Assembly (NCBI GenBank): GCA_021819085.1
Contig: JAKASJ010000001.1
Span: 248,001-312,000, forward strand
Source of the DNA: Pseudomonadota bacterium
GTDB lineage: Bacteria; Pseudomonadota; Gammaproteobacteria; Acidiferrobacterales; UBA6901
Length of the DNA: 64,000 nucleotides
Direction: 5' to 3'
Both the position numbers and the translations under genes were made by a program. The notes beneath the pieces were generated by a model that was given only the letters and a program-made list of their open reading frames with translations, was not told the origin of the DNA and made no database searches. Positions 7,565 through 18,216 of this stretch are shown piece after piece. How positions within the stretch are numbered: position 1 is the stretch's first letter; each line of letters starts with the position of its first letter.

Positions 7565-10120
7565 ATGAAGAAACGGATACTCAATTCGCTCGGTTCCCTG
7601 TTCGGCCTGCTGCTTTTCGGGGTCGCACTGTGGGCGCTGCACCATGCCCTGCGACACCACCAGTACCAGCAGGTTGTCGGGCAGCTCAGCGCCATACCCC
7701 TGACGCACATTCTGCTTGCCTTTGTCCTGACGGTTCTCGACTACGCCGTCCTGACCGGCTACGACACGCTCGCGTTTCGCTACATCGGCCAGCCACTCGA
7801 GCTCGGCAAGATCCGCCTGGCCTCGTTCATCGGTTATGCCTTCAGCCACAACCTCGGATTCTCGCTGGTTTCGGGCGGCTCGGTACGTTACCGCCTGTAC
7901 TCGTCCTGGGGTCTGTCGGCAATCCAGGTCACCAAGCTGGTCGCGTTCTGCGGCGTGACGTTCTGGCTCGGCTTTCTCGCACTCGGCGGGGGGGCATTCC
8001 TGCTCGAGCCGCCCACCATCCCCGGAGGCCTGCATCTCCCGTTTGATTCGGTCCGGGCGGCAGGTGTGCTGTTCCTGGCGCTGGCCGCGATCTACCTGGG
8101 CTGGGCCTTCCTTCGGAAAAAACCGATGAATGTCCTGGGCTGGGAGTTCTCGCTGCCGCGCCCGCCCCTCGCCCTCGCCCAGCTTGCGGTCGCCGTGACC
8201 GACTGGGCGCTGGCAGCGGCCGTGCTGTACGTGCTGCTGCCGGCCAACAGCCCCTGGGGCTACCCCGAATTCCTCGGCATCTTCCTTCTGGCCCAGATTA
8301 GCGGCATGGTCAGCCAGGTGCCCGGCGGCCTGGGAATTTTCGAGACCGTGATGCTGCTGTTCCTGTCGCCCGCGCTTCCCTCGGCCGCGGTCATCGGTTC
8401 GCTGCTCGTGTTCCGCGGCCTGTATTACGTCCTGCCCCTGGTGGTGGCGGCATCGCTGCTCGGCGCGCTCGAACTGCTGCAGCGACGTGAGGGCATCAAG
8501 CGCGTGGGGCGTCTGGTTGGCCAATGGCTTCCGATTCTCACGCCGCATGTCATCGCCTTCACCGTGTTCGTCGGCGGCGCGATCATGCTGTTTTCCGGTG
8601 CCACGCCGGCCGATCACTGGCAGATCGAGTGGCTGCGCCGGTTCGAGCCGCTACCGCTGCTTGAAATCTCGCACTTCACAAGCAGCGTCATCGGCGCCTG
8701 CCTGCTGATACTGGCGCGCGGTCTGCAGCGCCGGCTCGACGCCGCCTACCACCTGACCGTCGTGCTGCTCGGCGTAGGCGTCGTGATGTCCATTCTGAAG
8801 GGCTTCGACTACGCGGAGGCGGCAACACTGGCGGTCATGGTCGCTGTACTGCTGCCGACCCGGCGGCACTTCCACCGCAAGGCCTCGCTCATCAGCGAAC
8901 GATTCAGCGTCGGCTGGGTGGCGGCAATCATTCTGGTTCTGGTCGCGTCGATCTGGCTCGGCATGTTCTCCTACAAACACGTCGAGTACCGCGAGGACCT
9001 GTGGTGGCGTTTTGCGTTCTCCGGCAACGCGCCGCGCTTCCTGCGCGCTTCGGTGGGCGCCCTCGGCGTGGCACTGATCTTCGGGATCATGCGGCTGATG
9101 CGTCCGGCGCCTGCGGAACCGGAGCTCCCGGGCCCGCTCGAATTCGGGAAAGCCCGGGACATCGTGCGCCGGTCGCGCTATGCGGCGGCCAATCTTGCGC
9201 TGCTCGGCGACAAGCATCTGCTGTTCAGCGATAGCGGCAATGCGCTGCTCATGTACGGGGTGATCGGAAGCGCCTGGGTGGCCATGGGCGACCCGATCGG
9301 GCCGCGCGAGGAGCAGGAAGAACTGGTCTGGCAGTTCCGGGGGATCGTCGACGGCCATGACGGCTGGACCGCGTTCTACCAGGTCCAGCCGGACAACCTG
9401 CCCCTGTACCTGGACCTCGGACTCTCGCTGCTCAAGCTCGGCGAAGAGGCGCGCGTTCAGCTCGACAGATTTTCGCTGGACGGCGCGACCGGCAAGGGCA
9501 AGCGCAACCTCGTAAACCGGCTCGAAAAGGAAGGCTGCGAATTCGAGGTCCTGCCGGCAACCGAGGTACCGCCGCTGCTGGGACGTTTTCGCGCGATCTC
9601 CGATGCCTGGCTGGACCTGAAGGCAACGCGCGAAAAGCGCTTCTCGCTCGGCTTCTTCGATGAAGCCTACCTGCGCAACTTCCCGGCTGCGGTCGTGCGC
9701 CGCGGCGGAGCAATCGTAGCCTTTGCCAACCTGTGGCTGGGAGCGGAAAAAGAGGAAGTGTCGGTCGACCTCATGCGCTATGTCCCGGACGCTCCGGAGA
9801 GCGTCATGGAGTATCTTTTCATCAAGCTCATGCTCTGGGCCAAAACCGAGGGCTTCGGCTGGTTCAACCTGGGCATGGCCCCCCTGGCCGGGCTCGAGGA
9901 TCATACGCTCGCGCCGCTGTGGACTCGTCTTGGCGCCATGGTGTTCCGCCACGGCGAACACTTCTACAATTTCCAGGGACTGCGTCAGTACAAAACGAAG
10001 TTTGACCCGGTCTGGACGCCGCGCTATCTGGCAAGCCCGGGGGGTATCGCACTGCCGCGCATACTGACCGGCATTGCAACGCTGATTTCCGGCAGCCTGA
10101 AAGGAGCGATCGTCAAATGA
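7565..10120 (+). CDS. mprF: Bifunctional aminoacyl-phosphatidylglycerol synthetase/flippase MprF
   Basis: An 851-residue inner-membrane protein with the full MprF layout. Residues 1 to about 510 hold some 14 hydrophobic helices: first the UPF0104/LPG flippase part (VSQVPGGLGIFETVML near 255), then a second membrane block. Residues from about 530 to the end are the cytosolic DUF2156 domain with the GNAT-like fold (YAAANLALLGDKHLLFS, WVAMGDPIG, WFNLGMAPLAGLEDH). It moves lysine or alanine from aminoacyl-tRNA onto phosphatidylglycerol and flips the product, lowering surface charge. The stop overlaps acvB by four bases. In Agrobacterium and Rhizobium the equivalent pair, lpiA-acvB, responds to acid. 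Which amino acid is used here cannot be read from the sequence. Confidence 0.94.
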   Translation: MKKRILNSLGSLFGLLLFGVALWALHHALRHHQYQQVVGQLSAIPLTHILLAFVLTVLDYAVLTGYDTLAFRYIGQPLELGKIRLASFIGYAFSHNLGFSLVSGGSVRYRLYSSWGLSAIQVTKLVAFCGVTFWLGFLALGGGAFLLEPPTIPGGLHLPFDSVRAAGVLFLALAAIYLGWAFLRKKPMNVLGWEFSLPRPPLALAQLAVAVTDWALAAAVLYVLLPANSPWGYPEFLGIFLLAQISGMVSQVPGGLGIFETVMLLFLSPALPSAAVIGSLLVFRGLYYVLPLVVAASLLGALELLQRREGIKRVGRLVGQWLPILTPHVIAFTVFVGGAIMLFSGATPADHWQIEWLRRFEPLPLLEISHFTSSVIGACLLILARGLQRRLDAAYHLTVVLLGVGVVMSILKGFDYAEAATLAVMVAVLLPTRRHFHRKASLISERFSVGWVAAIILVLVASIWLGMFSYKHVEYREDLWWRFAFSGNAPRFLRASVGALGVALIFGIMRLMRPAPAEPELPGPLEFGKARDIVRRSRYAAANLALLGDKHLLFSDSGNALLMYGVIGSAWVAMGDPIGPREEQEELVWQFRGIVDGHDGWTAFYQVQPDNLPLYLDLGLSLLKLGEEARVQLDRFSLDGATGKGKRNLVNRLEKEGCEFEVLPATEVPPLLGRFRAISDAWLDLKATREKRFSLGFFDEAYLRNFPAAVVRRGGAIVAFANLWLGAEKEEVSVDLMRYVPDAPESVMEYLFIKLMLWAKTEGFGWFNLGMAPLAGLEDHTLAPLWTRLGAMVFRHGEHFYNFQGLRQYKTKFDPVWTPRYLASPGGIALPRILTGIATLISGSLKGAIVK

Positions 10121-12232: not shown

Positions 12233-12944
12233 AAACGCCCGCCCCCCGCGCTCCACATCCTCCGGGCGCGGCAAATCCGGCGGTACGCTGGTCGCGCACG
12301 CCAGCCTGCTCAGCCTGGCGCAGCGGCGGGCGCTGTTTGAGCGGCTCAAGGCGGAGAATCCGGCGCCAACCACCGAACTGCATTACCGCACGGCTTTCGA
12401 GCTGCTGGTGGCCGTCATGCTTTCGGCACAGGCGACGGACAAGAGCGTCAACAAGGCCACCGCCCGACTGTTTGCAGTCGCCGGCACGCCGCAGGCCATT
12501 CTCGATCTGGGCCTCGGCCGGCTGAAGGCCTACATCAAGACGATCGGCCTGTACAACACCAAGGCGGCGAACCTCCTGAAAACCTGCAGGCTGCTGCGCG
12601 AACGGCACGGAGGCGAAGTGCCGTCGACGCGCGCGGACCTGGAAGCCCTGCCGGGCGTGGGCCGCAAAACCGCCAATGTGATCCTCAATACCGCGTTCGG
12701 CGAACCCACGATCGCCGTCGACACTCATATTTTCCGGGTTGCTAACCGCACCGGGCTTGCCCCCGGCAGGACCGTGCTGGAAGTCGAGAACAATCTGCTC
12801 AAGGCAGTGCCCCGCCCCTACCGCCGGGATGCGCACCATTGGCTGATCCTGCACGGGCGTTATACCTGCGTTGCACGCCGCCCCCGCTGCGGCAGCTGCG
12901 TCATCTATGATTTATGCGCGTACCCGGATAAATTAGACGAATGA
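12171..12944 (+). CDS. nth: Endonuclease III
   Basis: A DNA glycosylase/AP lyase that removes oxidised pyrimidines and nicks the strand. The helix-hairpin-helix LPGVGRKTANV carries the catalytic lysine (K166) and the aspartate follows at D184 (AVDTHIFR). The C-terminal [4Fe-4S] cluster motif is C-x6-C-x2-C-x5-C (CVARRPRCGSCVIYDLC). Residues 45-257 align with the standard 211-residue enzyme. The N-terminal 45 residues are basic, low in complexity and atypical, and the start at 12171 lies inside the preceding gene. No ATG closer to the core exists, so either the extension is real or a non-ATG start is used. The stop overlaps the FIST gene by four bases. Confidence 0.95.
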   Translation: MKRPRIPVPLRPRSGATVTPENARPPRSTSSGRGKSGGTLVAHASLLSLAQRRALFERLKAENPAPTTELHYRTAFELLVAVMLSAQATDKSVNKATARLFAVAGTPQAILDLGLGRLKAYIKTIGLYNTKAANLLKTCRLLRERHGGEVPSTRADLEALPGVGRKTANVILNTAFGEPTIAVDTHIFRVANRTGLAPGRTVLEVENNLLKAVPRPYRRDAHHWLILHGRYTCVARRPRCGSCVIYDLCAYPDKLDE

Positions 12945-14038
12945 ACCGATCTGTCGCCACCGGCCTGAGCTACGGAGCAAAGGCCGTCCCCCAACATGCC
13001 GAGCGCGCCGTGGTTGCAGCACTGGAGCGCGCCGGGCTCGACAGTGCCAACGGCGTGCTGCTGTTCCTGACCCCTCATTACGCAAACCACCCGGAAGCCG
13101 CCCTGCGGGCCGCTGCGCGCGCTGCCGGCAGCCTGCAGATAGTCGGCTGTACCGGTGCCGGTGTTCTGACCGAACAGGAATGGCTGCTGGACAGCCCGGG
13201 TGCGGCGGCGATGGTATTCGGAAAGAACCTTCGCCTCGGCCTGCCTGGCGAGATGGAAGCGCAGGCGGTGGTGAGCCTGTGCACCCCGTCCGGCGCCACC
13301 GCCGACTGGTTCGACCTGCCCGTGCCGCGCATCGGTGCTGTATCCGGTGATATTTTCGGGCAGGGACCCTTCAAGGTATGGAGCGGCTGCCGCGTCGCCG
13401 ACAGCGGCCATGTCGAGGCGGTCATTTCCGGGAGCCGGAGCGCGATCCGGACTTCGCAGGGAGTGCGTGCGCTGACCTCGCCGATCGAGGTCGCGGAAGT
13501 CCAGGGCTACGATGTACTGCGCCTCGGGCACTACCCCGCGCTCAACGTGCTGGTCCAGGCTTTGCCTGTCGGTGTGCGCGAGATGGATCATATCCCGCTG
13601 CACCTGATCATGGGCGGCATTACGTTCGGGGATCCGCTGACTGCAATCCGCGACGGCCGTTACCGGCTCAACCACATTGTCTCGGCCAACCTGAGCGACC
13701 AGTCGATCACGCTTTCACATCCGCTCGAGCGTGGCGAGAAACTGTTTTGGGCAATGCGCGATGCGCTCGCCGCCGAGCGCGACATGCGTCTGGCCATCGA
13801 GCGCGCGCACGAGCAGCTCGCCGCTGCGCCGGATTTCGCGCTGCTGTTCCCGTGCATGGGACGCGGACCTCATTTCTACGGAAATCGCGACCGGGACCTG
13901 GACCAGCTGCGCACGGCCTTCCCGGATCTGCCCATTATCGGATTCTACGGTAACGGCGAGATCGGACCCGTCGATGCGGGCAATCACCTGTACCAGTATT
14001 CCACGGTACTGGGACTGTTCCGCACACAGCCCGGCTAG
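12941..14038 (+). CDS. FIST-domain signal protein
   Basis: A 365-residue cytosolic protein with the FIST N-terminal domain (residues about 30-225, motif QIVGCTGAGVLTEQEW) and the FIST C-terminal domain (about 230-345, motifs PDFALLFPCMGRG and PIIGFYGNGEIGP). FIST proteins are predicted sensors of small ligands, probably amino acids, and often act with chemotaxis or two-component proteins; the exact role is unknown for this subfamily. No kinase domain is attached. It starts within the nth stop (ATGA), so the two are translated from one message. The conserved cysteine in FPCMGRG matches a family position. Confidence 0.87.
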   Translation: MNRSVATGLSYGAKAVPQHAERAVVAALERAGLDSANGVLLFLTPHYANHPEAALRAAARAAGSLQIVGCTGAGVLTEQEWLLDSPGAAAMVFGKNLRLGLPGEMEAQAVVSLCTPSGATADWFDLPVPRIGAVSGDIFGQGPFKVWSGCRVADSGHVEAVISGSRSAIRTSQGVRALTSPIEVAEVQGYDVLRLGHYPALNVLVQALPVGVREMDHIPLHLIMGGITFGDPLTAIRDGRYRLNHIVSANLSDQSITLSHPLERGEKLFWAMRDALAAERDMRLAIERAHEQLAAAPDFALLFPCMGRGPHFYGNRDRDLDQLRTAFPDLPIIGFYGNGEIGPVDAGNHLYQYSTVLGLFRTQPG

Positions 14039-14046
14039 GAACCCCC

Positions 14047-14490
14047 GTGTATACGCAGGACCGCAACCGTATGCGGGAAACCTTCTTCCACGCGTGGCGG
14101 CGTTACCGCGACGGTGTGCCGCTCGAAGGAATCGAGTCGCTCATCGTGGCGGTGGTCGAACGGCATCCCGAGTACCACGCCATTCTCGAAAACGCTGACG
14201 AACACCGTGACCGGGATTACGAGGCCGAGTTCGGTCAGAGCAATCCCTTTTTGCACCTGGGCATGCACATCGCCATCGCCGAGCAGCTTTCCATTGACCA
14301 ACCGGCGGGCGTGCGCGCCTGCTACCAGGCGCTATGCGCCGGCGCCAGCGAACACGATGCCGAACATCGCATGATGGAGTGTCTGGGTGAAATGCTGTGG
14401 CAGGCCGGACAGGGGAATACTGCTCCGGATCCGCAGGCCTATCTGGACTGTCTGGCGCATCTGGCTGCCAGGAAGCCACGGCGGGGCTGA
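14047..14490 (+). CDS. DUF1841 family protein
   Basis: A 147-residue soluble protein of the uncharacterised DUF1841 family, recognised by FFHAWRRYRDG near the N-terminus and the core motif NPFLHLGMHIAIAEQLSIDQP. The GTG at 14047 is preceded by AGGAA and gives the length usual for the family; ATG at 14071 would cut into the conserved start. It begins 8 bases after the FIST gene, so it closes the nth operon. DUF1841 genes follow nth in many gammaproteobacteria, but no function is established. It is convergent with the glycosyltransferase gene, 39 bases away. Confidence 0.9.
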   Translation: MYTQDRNRMRETFFHAWRRYRDGVPLEGIESLIVAVVERHPEYHAILENADEHRDRDYEAEFGQSNPFLHLGMHIAIAEQLSIDQPAGVRACYQALCAGASEHDAEHRMMECLGEMLWQAGQGNTAPDPQAYLDCLAHLAARKPRRG

Positions 14491-14529
14491 GCCCGATCGA
14501 TCGCGTCCAGGACCGCCTGCCCGGAAAAG

Positions 14530-15204
14530 TCAGGATGAGTCGCGCTGGTCCAACGGGGAAATCCCCGGTGAACAGCCCGCCGCCAGCGGTTGCAGCGCCG
14601 GGCAGCACCGGGCGACACAGACCAGGTCTTCCCAGGTGTCTATGTCGCGCAACATGGCGAGCTTGCGGAACTCGACTCCCGCCGTCCGGGCCCGCGCCTG
14701 CGTTTCATTCAGGACCCGATGCCCGCCCCAGTCCATGCCGGCAAACAGCGCCGGCTCGGCCTGCTGCAACCCGATGAAATAGTAGCCTCCATCCATGGCC
14801 GGGCCAATGACATTGCCACCGCGGGCAAGCGTTTCGTAGGCGTCTTCCAGAGTGCCGGCATCACAGTGAGGCACATCGCAACCCATCACGGCCGCGGCGC
14901 CGCGCCGTCCGATGCCCAGACGCAGGGCGCGGAGCATGCGCTCGCCCAGGTCGCCTTCACCCTGGGCAGCCAGGTGCACATGCAGATCGTCGGCGAGATG
15001 CGCGAACAGCGGGTGGCAGGCATCGGGCGCACCACAGAGGTAGACTTCTCCTGGCCATGTGTCGGCCGCCAGGGCCACGGTCTGGCGGATAAGGTCGGCC
15101 GCGATCTCGGCGGCGCGGTCCGCCCCACAGACCTGTGCCAGACGTGTTTTGACCTGTCCGGCCAGCGGTTGCTTTGCGAACACGATCAAATCCGGTCTTT
15201 TCAT
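14530..15204 (-). CDS. TIGR04282-type (DUF2064) glycosyltransferase, arsenosugar-associated
   Basis: A 224-residue protein of the TIGR04282/DUF2064 family, related to nucleotidyl- and glycosyltransferases of GT-A fold. Motifs are the N-terminal VFAKQPLAGQVKTRLA loop, which binds the nucleotide, the acidic MGCDVPHCDAGTLEDAY, and GPAMDGGYYFIGL. It is named for its co-occurrence with arsenosugar genes, but homologues are widespread, and no arsM- or arsS-like gene is visible here. It lies 21 bases downstream of the TIGR04283 glycosyltransferase, and the pair is a standard two-gene unit. The substrate is not known. Confidence 0.88.
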   Translation of the reverse strand: MKRPDLIVFAKQPLAGQVKTRLAQVCGADRAAEIAADLIRQTVALAADTWPGEVYLCGAPDACHPLFAHLADDLHVHLAAQGEGDLGERMLRALRLGIGRRGAAAVMGCDVPHCDAGTLEDAYETLARGGNVIGPAMDGGYYFIGLQQAEPALFAGMDWGGHRVLNETQARARTAGVEFRKLAMLRDIDTWEDLVCVARCCPALQPLAAGCSPGISPLDQRDSS

Positions 15205-15225
15205 GGCGAGGCCACCCGCCGCAGT

Positions 15226-16041
15226 TCAGCGCACATCGGGATAGAAGCGCAAGAGCTGCGCCGGAGAGACGCCAAACCAGTAAAGAAGCCGCAGACCCCA
15301 CATGCGCAGCACGGTACGCGCGATCCCGCCGCGCTGCCAGCGTCGCGTCGCGCTGACCACCGGTACGCGGATGCGGGCGGGCCACGCCAGCGTGCGCAAC
15401 CGACGGGAAAGCTCAATATCCTCCATCAGCGGGATCGGTGCAAAGCCGCGCAACATCTCGAAAACATCGCGCCGCACGAACAGCGCCTGGTCTCCGGTGG
15501 CGATGCCCGTCAGCGCCGAGCGCCAGTTCATCGCCCGCTCTATGATGCGAAATGCAAACTGCCGCCCATCGAGGCGCACGTCGAAGCGACCCCATTCGCA
15601 ACCCTGCCGTACCGCCTCCCGGATCCTTTCTGCCGCTCCCGGCGACGGGCGGGTATCGACATGCAGAAAGAGCAGCACCTCGCCGGTGGCCGCATCCGCA
15701 CCCCGGTTCATCTGGAGGGCACGGCCGCGTGCACCCTGCAGCAGGACCACGCGGCAGGCAGGCCGGGACGCGCGCGCGCGGGCATCGGCCAGGGTCTGTA
15801 CCTGTGCCACGGTTCCATCGTCACTGCCGCCGTCAACCACGATTACCTCCTCGAATCCGGCATCGATCAGCACCGGTAGCCGTTCGTTGATATCGGCCGC
15901 CTCGTTCAGAACCGGAACGATCACTGTCACTGCGGGTCCCACGCGCCCGGCACCCAAGGCACCGGCCGCAACCGGGCCCGCCGCCGCTGCGATACCAGCT
16001 TCGCCGATGCCGACCTCTGTCCCGTTGGTTACTTCAGCCAT
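15226..16041 (-). CDS. TIGR04283-type family 2 glycosyltransferase, arsenosugar-associated
   Basis: A GT2 glycosyltransferase with VTVIVPVLNEAADI at the start of the GT-A domain, VVDGGSDDGT for nucleotide binding, a DxD-like HVDTRPSP motif and MEDIELSRRLR as the acceptor-side motif. A hydrophobic tail (WGLRLLYWFGVSP) may sit at the membrane. The domain begins about 37 residues after the ATG at 16041; another ATG at 16077 adds 12 residues without a visible ribosome site. The segment between start and domain is alanine- and glycine-rich. It forms a unit with the TIGR04282 gene downstream and is divergent from the leader RNA/DUF2156 module. Confidence 0.85.
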   Translation of the reverse strand: MAEVTNGTEVGIGEAGIAAAAGPVAAGALGAGRVGPAVTVIVPVLNEAADINERLPVLIDAGFEEVIVVDGGSDDGTVAQVQTLADARARASRPACRVVLLQGARGRALQMNRGADAATGEVLLFLHVDTRPSPGAAERIREAVRQGCEWGRFDVRLDGRQFAFRIIERAMNWRSALTGIATGDQALFVRRDVFEMLRGFAPIPLMEDIELSRRLRTLAWPARIRVPVVSATRRWQRGGIARTVLRMWGLRLLYWFGVSPAQLLRFYPDVR

Positions 16042-16211
16042 CGAACCACATTCTCGGTGATGCCCCTCCGCTGTCATTGCGGGAATCCGCAGATTTTGCG
16101 ATTTTCACGGTTTTCCGCCACGTCACCCGTCGGCGCACCCCTGCCGCAGGAGACTCCGGTTATCCGGCTCCGGAACCGGACACCCCGCCGTTCCACGGAA
16201 CGAACCCGGAC

Positions 16212-16259: not shown

Positions 16260-16288
16260 TTGCAATCGTCTACACTAGAGAGTAAATA
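16260..16288 (+). promoter_or_regulatory. Sigma-70-like promoter
   Basis: TTGCAA (16260-16265) and TAAATA (16283-16288) are separated by 17 bases. Transcription would begin near 16295 and read through the structured region toward the DUF2156 gene. TACACT at 16271-16276 is an alternative -10 element. Confidence 0.5.
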
Positions 16289-16294
16289 GCCGTC

Positions 16295-16414
16295 AGGATC
16301 ATGACTGACTCGACCGACTGTTGTAGTACTGAATCTACTTCGACCTCCGCGGCCCAGCGCAAGCGGAGGTCACAGGCTGTCAGGCGCCAACGGGGCTCAA
16401 TGCCCCGTTTTTTT
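16295..16414 (+). ncRNA. Structured leader RNA or small RNA ending in a terminator
   Basis: About 120 bases follow a promoter-like sequence and hold three stems: GTAG/CTAC (16323-16326 with 16335-16338), a perfect 9-bp stem GACCTCCGC/GCGGAGGTC (16342-16350 with 16363-16371), and a terminator (ACGGGGC/GCCCCGT plus seven T, 16390-16414). It could be a stand-alone small RNA or an attenuating leader of the DUF2156 gene. An ORF of 50 codons starts inside it at ATG 16301 (MTDSTDCCSTESTSTS...) with AGGA upstream, but it runs through the terminator, so full translation would need read-through. I do not recognise a known riboswitch class. Confidence 0.45.
16390..16414 (+). terminator. Rho-independent terminator
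   Basis: A 7-bp stem ACGGGGC/GCCCCGT with the loop TCAAT is followed by a run of seven T. It is a classic intrinsic terminator on the plus strand, 65 bases before the next ribosome site. It ends the leader/small RNA or attenuates the downstream genes. Confidence 0.85.
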
Positions 16415-16478
16415 ATTTCTGCCCATCCTCGCGCCAGCGGCCCCCATACCTGAACTTACCCCGATAAGGAGCCACACC

Positions 16479-16580
16479 GTGCCCGAGAAGAACGAAAACG
16501 AACCTCCCGAACCTATGACGGCGCCGACATGCGCCGGGACCCTGCATGACACAATTCATAAAGGGGACCGCCCATGCTGA
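16479..16580 (+). CDS. Short ORF of 33 codons coupled to the DUF2156 gene
   Basis: GTG at 16479 follows AAGGAG with a 7-base gap, one of the best ribosome sites in the window. The peptide begins MPEKNENEPPEPMTAP, is acidic and proline-rich at first, then contains TCAGTLHDTIHKGDRPC with two cysteines, the last being the final residue. Its stop overlaps the ATG of the DUF2156 gene (ATGCTGA), typical of translational coupling. It may be a leader peptide, a regulatory uORF or a substrate of the enzymes encoded next. I recognise no family, and the reading as a gene rests on signals rather than homology. Confidence 0.45.
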   Translation: MPEKNENEPPEPMTAPTCAGTLHDTIHKGDRPC

Positions 16581-17668
16581 ACGCCGTCAACGCCGTCATG
16601 GATGTCCACTTCCTCACCCCCGTCGGCCCTGCGCCCGTTCTCCCGGGCGATGCAGCGGGCGGGCACAGAACCGCCCGCCAGGATTCCGTCCGCAAACGTT
16701 ATCTCGTCGCCGGCAAATATCGCCTTTACCCCTTTGATCACAGTGCCAAGGCTTACTTCGACGAAGCCTGCGTCCGCAGCAACGTGGCACTGTCCGATTA
16801 CAGCTTCGCCAACAACGTCATCTGGCTGGCCCAGGCGAGCGGTTTCTACCAGATCATAGAAGGCTGTTTCTGCCTTTTTGCCTTGAACGGCAATGGCCTC
16901 ACCATGCTCTTGCCGCCGCTGGGCGATACCTCACGTCAGTATCGGGCGCTCAAGATCTGTATCAAGATCATGGACTTGTATAACCCGTCTCCGTTTCAGG
17001 CCCGGCTGGATTACGTATACAAGGACTTTCTCAAAGTTCTCGAACTGGATGGCGCAACCGGCGCGGCCCTGATCAACGGCGAGCGCTGGCACGTGGAGGT
17101 CACCAATCCGGATTACATCTACCGCACCCAGGATCTGATCGAGCTCCGGGGCAACGCTTACAAAACCAAGCGCAACGAGATCAACCAGTTCCGGCGCGCC
17201 TATCCGAACCACGCTCTGGTGCCTTTCAACAAGAGCCACCGAGACGAAGCGCGGGCCCTGGTGAATACCTGGGTGCAGAACCGCCTGCGCACTTTGCCGG
17301 ACGGGCCGGTCGAGGAGTTTCTGTACAACCTGGAGATGGAACGCAAGGCCATCCAGCGCGCCATCGCCCTGTGTGAAGAACTCGGACTGGAGGGCCTCAG
17401 CCTGTTCATCGATGGACGCCTGGAAGGCTTTACTTTTGGCGAACGCCTCAACCGGGATGTCGCCAACGTGCTGATTGAAAAGACGAACTTTAATATCCAG
17501 GGCGCTGCGCAGTACCTGTTCCGGGAGTTCAGCAAGGTCTTTGGCGATTGCACTTACATCAACGTCGGTGATGACCTCGGATTCGAGAACCTGCGGCGCG
17601 TGAAGATGAGCTATCGACCGGCCATGTTCGGCGAGAAGATCATCCTGAGACGCCCCTTGTCCGAGTGA
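16574..17668 (+). CDS. DUF2156 family (aminoacyl-tRNA-dependent transferase-like) protein
   Basis: A 364-residue soluble protein made up of a DUF2156 domain, related to the synthase half of MprF but without any membrane part. The fold is a tandem GNAT; visible segments are YRLYPFDHSAKAYFDEAC, DYIYRTQDLIELRGNAYKTKRNEIN (quoted in part), GLSLFIDGRLEGFTFGERL and TYINVGDDLGFENLRRVKMSY. Stand-alone members are predicted to move an amino acid from tRNA, or an acyl group from acyl-CoA, to an unknown acceptor. The start at 16574 has AGGGGA upstream; ATG at 16598 is an alternative. It overlaps the small ORF upstream and the acetyltransferase downstream, so all three are probably co-translated. Confidence 0.85.
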   Translation: MLNAVNAVMDVHFLTPVGPAPVLPGDAAGGHRTARQDSVRKRYLVAGKYRLYPFDHSAKAYFDEACVRSNVALSDYSFANNVIWLAQASGFYQIIEGCFCLFALNGNGLTMLLPPLGDTSRQYRALKICIKIMDLYNPSPFQARLDYVYKDFLKVLELDGATGAALINGERWHVEVTNPDYIYRTQDLIELRGNAYKTKRNEINQFRRAYPNHALVPFNKSHRDEARALVNTWVQNRLRTLPDGPVEEFLYNLEMERKAIQRAIALCEELGLEGLSLFIDGRLEGFTFGERLNRDVANVLIEKTNFNIQGAAQYLFREFSKVFGDCTYINVGDDLGFENLRRVKMSYRPAMFGEKIILRRPLSE

Positions 17669-18216
17669 TGTCTGCCAGGCCGGCGATACGTCGCGCCGGA
17701 CCGGCCGATCTTGACCGGATCGTCGAGATCGAACGTGAATGCTTCGGCACCGTTGATGGCGCCTTCTCGCGTCGCCAGCTCAGACGCCTGCTCGCCAATC
17801 CCAACGCCTACTGGATGCTGGGTGCCGACGGGCTGGCGGTGGCCTGCTGGCTGACTGCCAGCAACGGCCGCGCCCGCTGGGCGCGGCTCTATTCTCTGGC
17901 CGTGCACCCCAAGCTGCGCGGTCAGGGCTGGGGTGGACGGCTGCTGCGCGCCGGCCTGGCGTGGATGCGGGCACGGGACCTGTCGGTCTGCCGCGCGGAA
18001 GTAAACGCCCTCAATCATCCGGCACGCCGGCTTTACGCACGCTTCGGATTCCAGGAAGTTGGCCGGCTTCCCGGCTACTACGGACCCGCCGTCGACGGGC
18101 TGCGCCTGGTTCTGCACCTGAGTACCGAAAAATCTGCCGCAGCGGGCGACACCTCGGCCGGCAAGCGTTCGCAACGGCGCGGGCGCGGCTCATCGGGGCG
18201 CGTGCGCAACCCCTAG
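17668..18216 (+). CDS. GNAT N-acetyltransferase, RimI-like
   Basis: A 182-residue GNAT acetyltransferase of the RimI type. Acetyl-CoA-binding motif A is visible as LYSLAVHPKLRGQGWGGRLLRA (quoted here only as a landmark), followed by the RimI-like NHPARRLYARFGFQEVGRLPGYY. The conserved tyrosine in LYARFGF is the usual catalytic acid position. The last 35 residues are basic and disordered (GKRSQRRGRGSSGR). The ATG at 17668 overlaps the stop of the DUF2156 gene (TGATG). In this position it probably acetylates the same target as, or a product of, the DUF2156 enzyme; that is inference. Confidence 0.88.
   Translation: MSARPAIRRAGPADLDRIVEIERECFGTVDGAFSRRQLRRLLANPNAYWMLGADGLAVACWLTASNGRARWARLYSLAVHPKLRGQGWGGRLLRAGLAWMRARDLSVCRAEVNALNHPARRLYARFGFQEVGRLPGYYGPAVDGLRLVLHLSTEKSAAAGDTSAGKRSQRRGRGSSGRVRNP

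Follow-up and report, generated by a model that had tools for sequence, protein, structure and literature searches.

The window analysed here, a 64,000-nucleotide stretch of contig JAKASJ010000001.1 from a gammaproteobacterial metagenome-assembled genome of the Acidiferrobacterales, carries three genes that overlap end to end: a short ORF, a gene for a soluble DUF2156 protein and a gene for a RimI-like GNAT acetyltransferase (Table 1). The Shine-Dalgarno sequence (SD) of the short ORF is well placed, with a spacing of 7 nt between AAGGAG and the GTG start, and at the far end of the second gene the DUF2156 stop overlaps the GNAT start (TGATG). An earlier note on this DNA had described the same layout, a short ORF with a good ribosome site running into DUF2156 and DUF2156 into GNAT; the coordinates and 24 conserved versions of the short ORF show that the description was right.

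Table 1. Features of the DUF2156-GNAT cassette and of the region upstream (positions in the window)
Feature	Position	Strand	Basis
Sigma-70-like promoter, TTGCAA-N17-TAAATA	16260-16288	+	Conserved pattern upstream in relatives
Putative upstream leader ORF1, M[ST][DA]S[TAV]DCCS...	16301-16453	+	Starts about 12 nt past the -10, runs into the terminator
Predicted intrinsic terminator, downstream of the promoter and ahead of the short ORF	16389-16416	+	Terminator-like site conserved in the split clade
SD of the short ORF, AAGGAG	16466-16471	+	Sequence; SD-like element also in relatives
33-codon ORF, candidate leader peptide	16479-16580	+	GTG start, product MPEKNENEPPEPMTAPTCAGTLHDTIHKGDRPC; 24 distinct versions conserved
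N-E-P-P-E codons, AAC GAA CCT CCC GAA	16497-16511	+	Acidic/Pro-Pro motif, conserved
Predicted RNA hairpin sequestering the DUF2156 SD (AAAGGGG) and start codon	16516-16589	+	Consensus fold, covariation, cost of opening the ribosome-binding site (RBS)
ATGCTGA start/stop overlap of the short ORF with DUF2156	16574-16580	+	ATGYTRA in 24/24 split-clade versions
Soluble DUF2156 / LPG_synthase_C protein, 364 aa	16574-17668	+	PF09924, 2.2e-32; profile match to 2HQY
GNAT acetyltransferase, RimI-like	17668-18216	+	PF00583, 1.1e-15; TIGR01575, 59.7 bits

The DUF2156 ORF lacks an MprF-type N-terminal membrane flippase domain, because the domain match covers residues 74-355 and leaves no room for one. The model of a homologue (L032) fits 2HQY with a TMt of 0.86, the catalytic domains of MprF with 0.55-0.67 and FemX with 0.54-0.58, and the enzyme therefore shares its dual-GNAT fold with tRNA-dependent aminoacyl transferases, a kinship that the earlier note had already suggested. 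Its closest counterparts in fold, the single-domain 2HQY from Bacteroides and the C-terminal domains of MprF, also belong to PF09924; unlike MprF, the enzyme is soluble and flippase-free, and its identity to the MprF domains is 11-15%. About 6.5 kb upstream lies a second LPG_synthase_C protein (matching part at 9170-10033), whose open frame of 862 aa, the size of MprF, makes it an MprF candidate. The genome thus has long and short soluble LPG_synthase_C versions.

For the GNAT gene, ATG 17668 is a likelier start than GTG 17665 because the homologues of congeners align from the ATG. Its product is not the true RimI: its TIGR01575 score is below the cut-off of 86.4 bits and a RimI above the cut-off is encoded elsewhere in the genome. 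Both EttA and EpmA are encoded in this genome, and the presence of EpmA/GenX above its cut-off makes it less probable that DUF2156 is an EF-P-modifying enzyme that senses polyproline.

Across the order, DUF2156 was detected in 36 of 57 genomes, and we retrieved 29 loci from named records. The window and the relatives whose DUF2156 is 73-98% identical, some of which carry the names Acidiferrobacter or Acidiferrobacteraceae, provide 24 distinct versions of the short ORF. These belong to two families in the numbering of our genome search, f1, the window's own, and f2. At every f1 and f2 locus that was analysed in detail, the short ORF is present, 26-34 codons long and varying in length by whole codons only. 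In all 24 versions there is an ATG or GTG start codon, an SD-like element and an open frame free of internal stops; all 24 encode Glu-Pro-Pro or Asp-Pro-Pro, (E/D)PP, and all 24 end in a Cys codon and stop that overlap the DUF2156 start as A-TGY-TRA, in which the ATG is the start codon of the enzyme. By this comparison of sequences, the short ORF is confirmed to be real and conserved above chance. Two oddities appeared among the loci. In a single-contig genome (L056), an indel directly past the overlap apparently shifts the N-terminal frame of DUF2156, either as a sequencing error or as a disrupted start. In two f2 loci (L024 and L025), the frame of the short ORF reaches back through the terminator to a start close to the promoter, an open stretch of 91-99 codons; this extended frame is closed in close relatives and may be due to chance.

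The two parts of the short ORF are under very different constraint. By codon-wise comparison, pN/pS from codon 2 to EPPE is 0.36 over all versions, 0.20 in the genus and 0.17 in f2-g4, against 0.92, 0.86 and 0.68 in the rest of the ORF. Given such low values in the N-terminal half and near-neutral ones in the C-terminal half, the former, ending in (D/E)NEPPE, is by these ratios the only part selected as a peptide. The earlier note had proposed looking for the short ORF in relatives that keep both enzymes, since its absence or random drift would count against it; the ORF and its N-terminal half are conserved in 24 versions from two families, and only the C-terminal half drifts. The acidic, proline-rich N-terminus to which it drew attention is precisely the selected part. 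The C-terminal cysteine, on which it also remarked, is instead forced by the overlap, because in A-TGY-TRA the end of the ATG and the following pyrimidine spell Cys ahead of the stop, and it does not in itself indicate a reactive cysteine. A profile search with the short peptide returned no family match.

RiPP and PEARL peptide clusters feature a small ORF beside a tRNA-dependent-type transferase, and our cassette resembles them in having such a neighbourhood together with a GNAT. In fact, a precursor peptide accompanied by tailoring enzymes was the interpretation offered in the earlier note, and the data do not support it. A RiPP precursor has a selected core, usually C-terminal, that is encoded apart from the enzyme. 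Here there is no conserved C-terminal core: the C-terminal half, the usual place of a modified core, drifts (pN/pS 0.68-0.92) and is constrained as a hairpin and RBS. Moreover, three other families carry the motif on the N-terminus of the enzyme itself, within its ORF and without a separate peptide, the Pro codons are biased away from CCG, and the terminal Cys comes from the gene overlap. If the short ORF is instead a regulatory leader, as proposed below, it illustrates how a short ORF coupled to enzyme genes can mimic a peptide-modification cluster.

These three families (f7, f28 and f119) are gammaproteobacterial families whose DUF2156 is ~54-61% identical; they have no separate short ORF. 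Most of their enzymes begin with M-L-x-Q-x-(E/D)-E-P-P, for example MLSQTEEPP, which places EEPP or DEPP at codons 6-9, ahead of a variable linker; the residue past the two prolines varies widely (P, S, R, L, Q or G). Counting both forms, EPP or DPP is found in 24/24 short ORFs that are split from the enzyme and in 17/17 of the fused proteins sampled, and it is absent from the more distant relatives f131, f185 and L035-L037. In the tree, all split loci lie in one clade (100/100), which fits a single fission, and the fused loci are scattered over several lineages. The constant distance of the motif from the initiator Met, in most fused proteins with the consensus above and variable linkers behind it, recalls a short linear motif by which the enzyme would dock to a cellular partner and which would have been split off in f1 and f2 to work as a free peptide. 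We consider this very unlikely, because a tether severed from its enzyme would have no obvious use and because of the slow-codon bias described below. In addition, the model of the fused homologue L032, confident over the domain (pTM 0.79), predicts a disordered tail that is not docked on the enzyme's own domain (pLDDT ~31-35).

The codons of the motif carry a signature of their own. Over split and fused loci together, the first Pro codon is CCT or CCC in 38/41 and CCG in 1/41, although in those genes 53-54% of all Pro codons are CCG. In E. coli, two successive prolines are joined more slowly on CCC and CCU, and Pro pairs are depleted of these two codons (PMC8129111). Neither a free peptide nor a docking tail would need such a bias, and a peptide acting in trans does not predict the avoidance of CCG. 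The bases that encode EPP, GAACCUCC, might however act as an anti-SD, through pairing with the GGAG of the same ORF, in which case the encoded peptide would be incidental. A GAA-CCT-CC bias exists, and SD and motif codons are complementary over 4-5 nt in 13/24 split and 10/17 fused loci (23/41), but the remaining 11 split and 7 fused loci (18/41, among them f2-g4, f28 and others) have no run of at least four pairs and still keep EPP, with CCC, CCA or CCG. Those 18 loci rule out pairing as the sole cause, and we judge this explanation highly improbable.

What constrains the C-terminal half appears to be RNA. In the window's genus, the hairpin over the DUF2156 ribosome site has a consensus fold of -34.1 kcal/mol and three two-sided covarying pairs. 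A hairpin also forms within the C-terminal half in f2, GCUUCCUCCC...GGGAGGAAGC, and its 3' arm is the DUF2156 SD; over 15 sequences, two-sided changes occur in 6 of its 15 pairs and 91.6% of cells are paired, against 38-58% when the partner is slid by 1-3 columns. The f1 hairpin differs from it, being longer and unrelated in sequence. In the window, opening the RBS would cost 17.8 kcal/mol, versus 9.6 (sd 1.6) with shuffled flanks, and f2 examples give z values of 1.4-3.1 against shuffled flanks; three loci (L014, L020 and L026) are exceptions, with little or no excess sequestration. The covariation and the folding costs together indicate that this half of the ORF is shaped by the hairpin and the RBS, not by its amino-acid sequence. 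An Rfam scan of the window gave no match at the gathering threshold.

The hairpin and the motif are in register. In both f1 and f2, the first hairpin pair is found at +10 nt, counted from the first base of the second Pro codon. When the cost of opening the RBS is modelled along the leader, its steepest fall is complete once the P-site has reached -1 to +2 relative to the second Pro codon in 23/24 versions, all of which go back to one origin, so that shared ancestry limits the count of independent trials; this fall amounts to at least 5 kcal/mol in 22/24. A ribosome parked at Pro-Pro would open the hairpin only in part, ~13-14.5 kcal/mol remaining in the f2-g4 and f1 models. As expected of a leader peptide, the RBS thus sits in an mRNA structure that the position of a ribosome can alter, except in L014 and L020. 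The ATGYTRA overlap, the hairpin over the RBS in most split loci and the gathering of these loci in one clade (100/100), versus the scattered fused ones, would also be compatible with plain translational coupling after gene fission, in which the short ORF does nothing more than bring ribosomes to the DUF2156 start and EPP is kept for an unrelated reason. This simpler scheme strikes us as rather unlikely because it leaves unexplained the conservation of EPP, the slow Pro codons and the register of Pro-Pro with the hairpin base in two unrelated hairpins.

The cassette also seems to have its own transcription signals. The pattern TTG[CT]A[AT]-N17-TA[ACG]AT occurs in 21/22 relatives with enough sequence, versus 3.3% of random 330-nt segments, and in these 21/22 relatives the candidate promoter, TTGCAA-N17-TA(A/C/G)ATA, precedes the short ORF by 156-298 nt. 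Closer to the short ORF, 41-77 nt upstream, 22/23 split-clade loci with enough sequence have a terminator-like site, versus 6% of random segments; the same scan of fused loci found it in 1/16. Comparing 22/23 split with 1/16 fused loci, we read this site as a candidate attenuator that was gained with the split clade or kept only there. Since the upstream gene is divergent in the window and in three congeners, the terminator would act on the operon's own leader and is probably a transcription attenuator. The upstream part of the window, at 12941-16077, contains a FIST-domain protein, DUF1841, DUF2064 and a glycosyltransferase-2 gene, and the last two, divergent from the cassette, occupy the same place in three congeners.

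Between promoter and terminator, the putative ORF1 has a pN/pS of 0.31 in frame across five congeners, against 1.78 and 0.60 when read in the other two frames, with third codon positions the most variable; as a peptide it is not recognisable outside the genus. Its product (MTDSTDCCS...) would be translated from a near-leaderless message and has a double Cys, and the frame looks coding-like in the five congeners.

A further regularity concerns the third gene. Wherever the sequence extends far enough, the EPP-bearing lineages all have a GNAT gene following DUF2156, as does f185; 5/6 of the EPP-lacking relatives are without a GNAT directly downstream. Among loci L057-L081, EPP and a downstream GNAT occur together across families; f185 has the GNAT without EPP, and f131, L035 and L036 have neither. 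This co-occurrence, seen in few lineages, possibly reflects a functional link. It is what would be expected if the peptide worked in trans, as a substrate, scaffold or co-factor for DUF2156 that is acetylated by GNAT and forms the N-terminal tail in fused lineages. Such a role would account for the conservation of the N-terminal half at the peptide level, for the fusion and fission of motif and enzyme, which suggest a functional link, and for a fold common to aminoacyl-tRNA-dependent peptide synthases. It would not account for a C-terminal half that is neutral at the amino-acid level and a terminal Cys that the overlap imposes, for the slow synonymous Pro codons, or for a fused tail that is predicted to be disordered and undocked; nor do the first residues (MP, MT, MD, MA or ML) offer a common site for acetylation. 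We thus find a trans-acting peptide improbable.

We propose that the short ORF encodes a leader peptide that acts in cis on the DUF2156-GNAT operon, a reading to which we assign a probability of about 0.62. A ribosome would load at the strong SD of the short ORF and translate the acidic N-terminal stretch up to Glu-Pro-Pro, where slow elongation or drop-off would set it against the base of the hairpin in which the SD and start codon of DUF2156 are buried. Its progress through the leader would then decide whether DUF2156 is translated, along two routes: a paused ribosome would free the RBS, and one that completes the leader would allow termination-reinitiation at ATGYTRA. The promoter-proximal leader and the intrinsic terminator probably add transcription attenuation to this control. 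The computed support consists of the conserved ORF, which lies directly 5' of the gene it would regulate and is conserved with it as in other leader peptides, the selection on its N-terminal half, the slow-codon bias, the covarying RBS hairpin in register with Pro-Pro, the promoter and the terminator. From these we infer that ribosomes actually pause at Glu-Pro-Pro and that their progress there may set the exposure of the RBS and hence DUF2156-GNAT translation; the signal could be EF-P, EttA, Mg2+ or the level of charged tRNA. Which way the response goes and what the enzymes act on likewise belong to this conjectural part of the model.

Not all observations favour a cis-acting leader. EPPE as a strong stall finds no support here or in the papers cited, and the main difficulty comes from the fused relatives, which have no separate RBS, so that the motif could act only on the enzyme's own translation, by slowing or aborting it. 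The position of the motif in f7, f28 and f119, at codons 6-9 of the enzyme, is nonetheless as expected for an early-elongation element. A programmed frameshift fusing the short ORF to the enzyme was also considered and rejected: in the window, the DUF2156 frame is open for only 4 codons upstream of its ATG, inspection by eye showed no X_XXY_YYZ heptamer in that stretch, and slipping by +1 at CCC-C would lead into the third frame.

Relatives of this arrangement can be found among known leader peptides. In the mgtC-mgtB intergenic region of Salmonella, the uORF MgtQ, a short ORF with acidic codons, releases an RBS that is sequestered by a stem-loop (PMC8092293). Our ORF likewise has acidic codons and lies directly upstream of a gene with a hairpin-hidden RBS; but MgtQ has 8 codons, no Pro-Pro and two alternative stem-loops, whereas here we find 26-34 codons, EPP, a start/stop overlap with the regulated gene, other target genes and no sequence relation. 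In MgtL (EPDP) and other E. coli genes, acidic residues and Pro within the first 30 codons provoke pausing or drop-off that is relieved by EttA, and such targets are documented in a leader peptide (MgtL) and in enzyme N-termini alike (PMC11282234). The same combination is found here, again both in a leader and in enzyme N-termini: 22/24 split ORFs have, within the first 30 codons, Pro and two acidic residues that are adjacent or one apart. MgtL, however, acts on Rho-dependent transcription termination, and here an RBS hairpin and an intrinsic terminator would be the targets. The RAPP/RGPP arrest peptides ApdA and ApdP (PMC12992588, PMC10987492) resemble our case in that a small ORF with Pro-Pro precedes the gene under control; they differ in that our motif stands in the N-terminal half, without Arg-Ala/Gly ahead of Pro-Pro, and that no protein-localization gene follows. 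An arrest of that type can be dismissed, as the motif is (E/D)PP and R-(A/G)-P-P near the C-terminus is absent. A search of the open-licence literature for leader peptides of DUF2156 or mprF, or of Acidiferrobacter, turned up no relevant paper. The regulatory leader peptide that our data support best is without a description in the papers covered by that search.

If this reading is right, an operon without known regulation or product would gain a bacterial leader peptide, and one with an unusual history, given that the same short nascent-chain motif exists inside an enzyme and as an independent upstream ORF. We can also envision, as an unlikely extension, that the acidic stretch with Glu-Pro-Pro and its slow codons is a portable nascent-chain element, kept in several gammaproteobacterial families with one enzyme of the aminoacyl-tRNA-dependent type, either as its first nine residues or as a separate leader ORF. 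There it would sense the state of the translation machinery on which the enzyme draws (e.g. charged-tRNA, EF-P or EttA capacity) and provide feedback control of a tRNA-consuming enzyme. If the leader peptide is real, these loci would offer natural variants for studying how early acidic-Pro sequences control translation. It would also give a handle on the orphan DUF2156-GNAT pair, because finding out when the pause is triggered or relieved should reveal the role of the enzyme.
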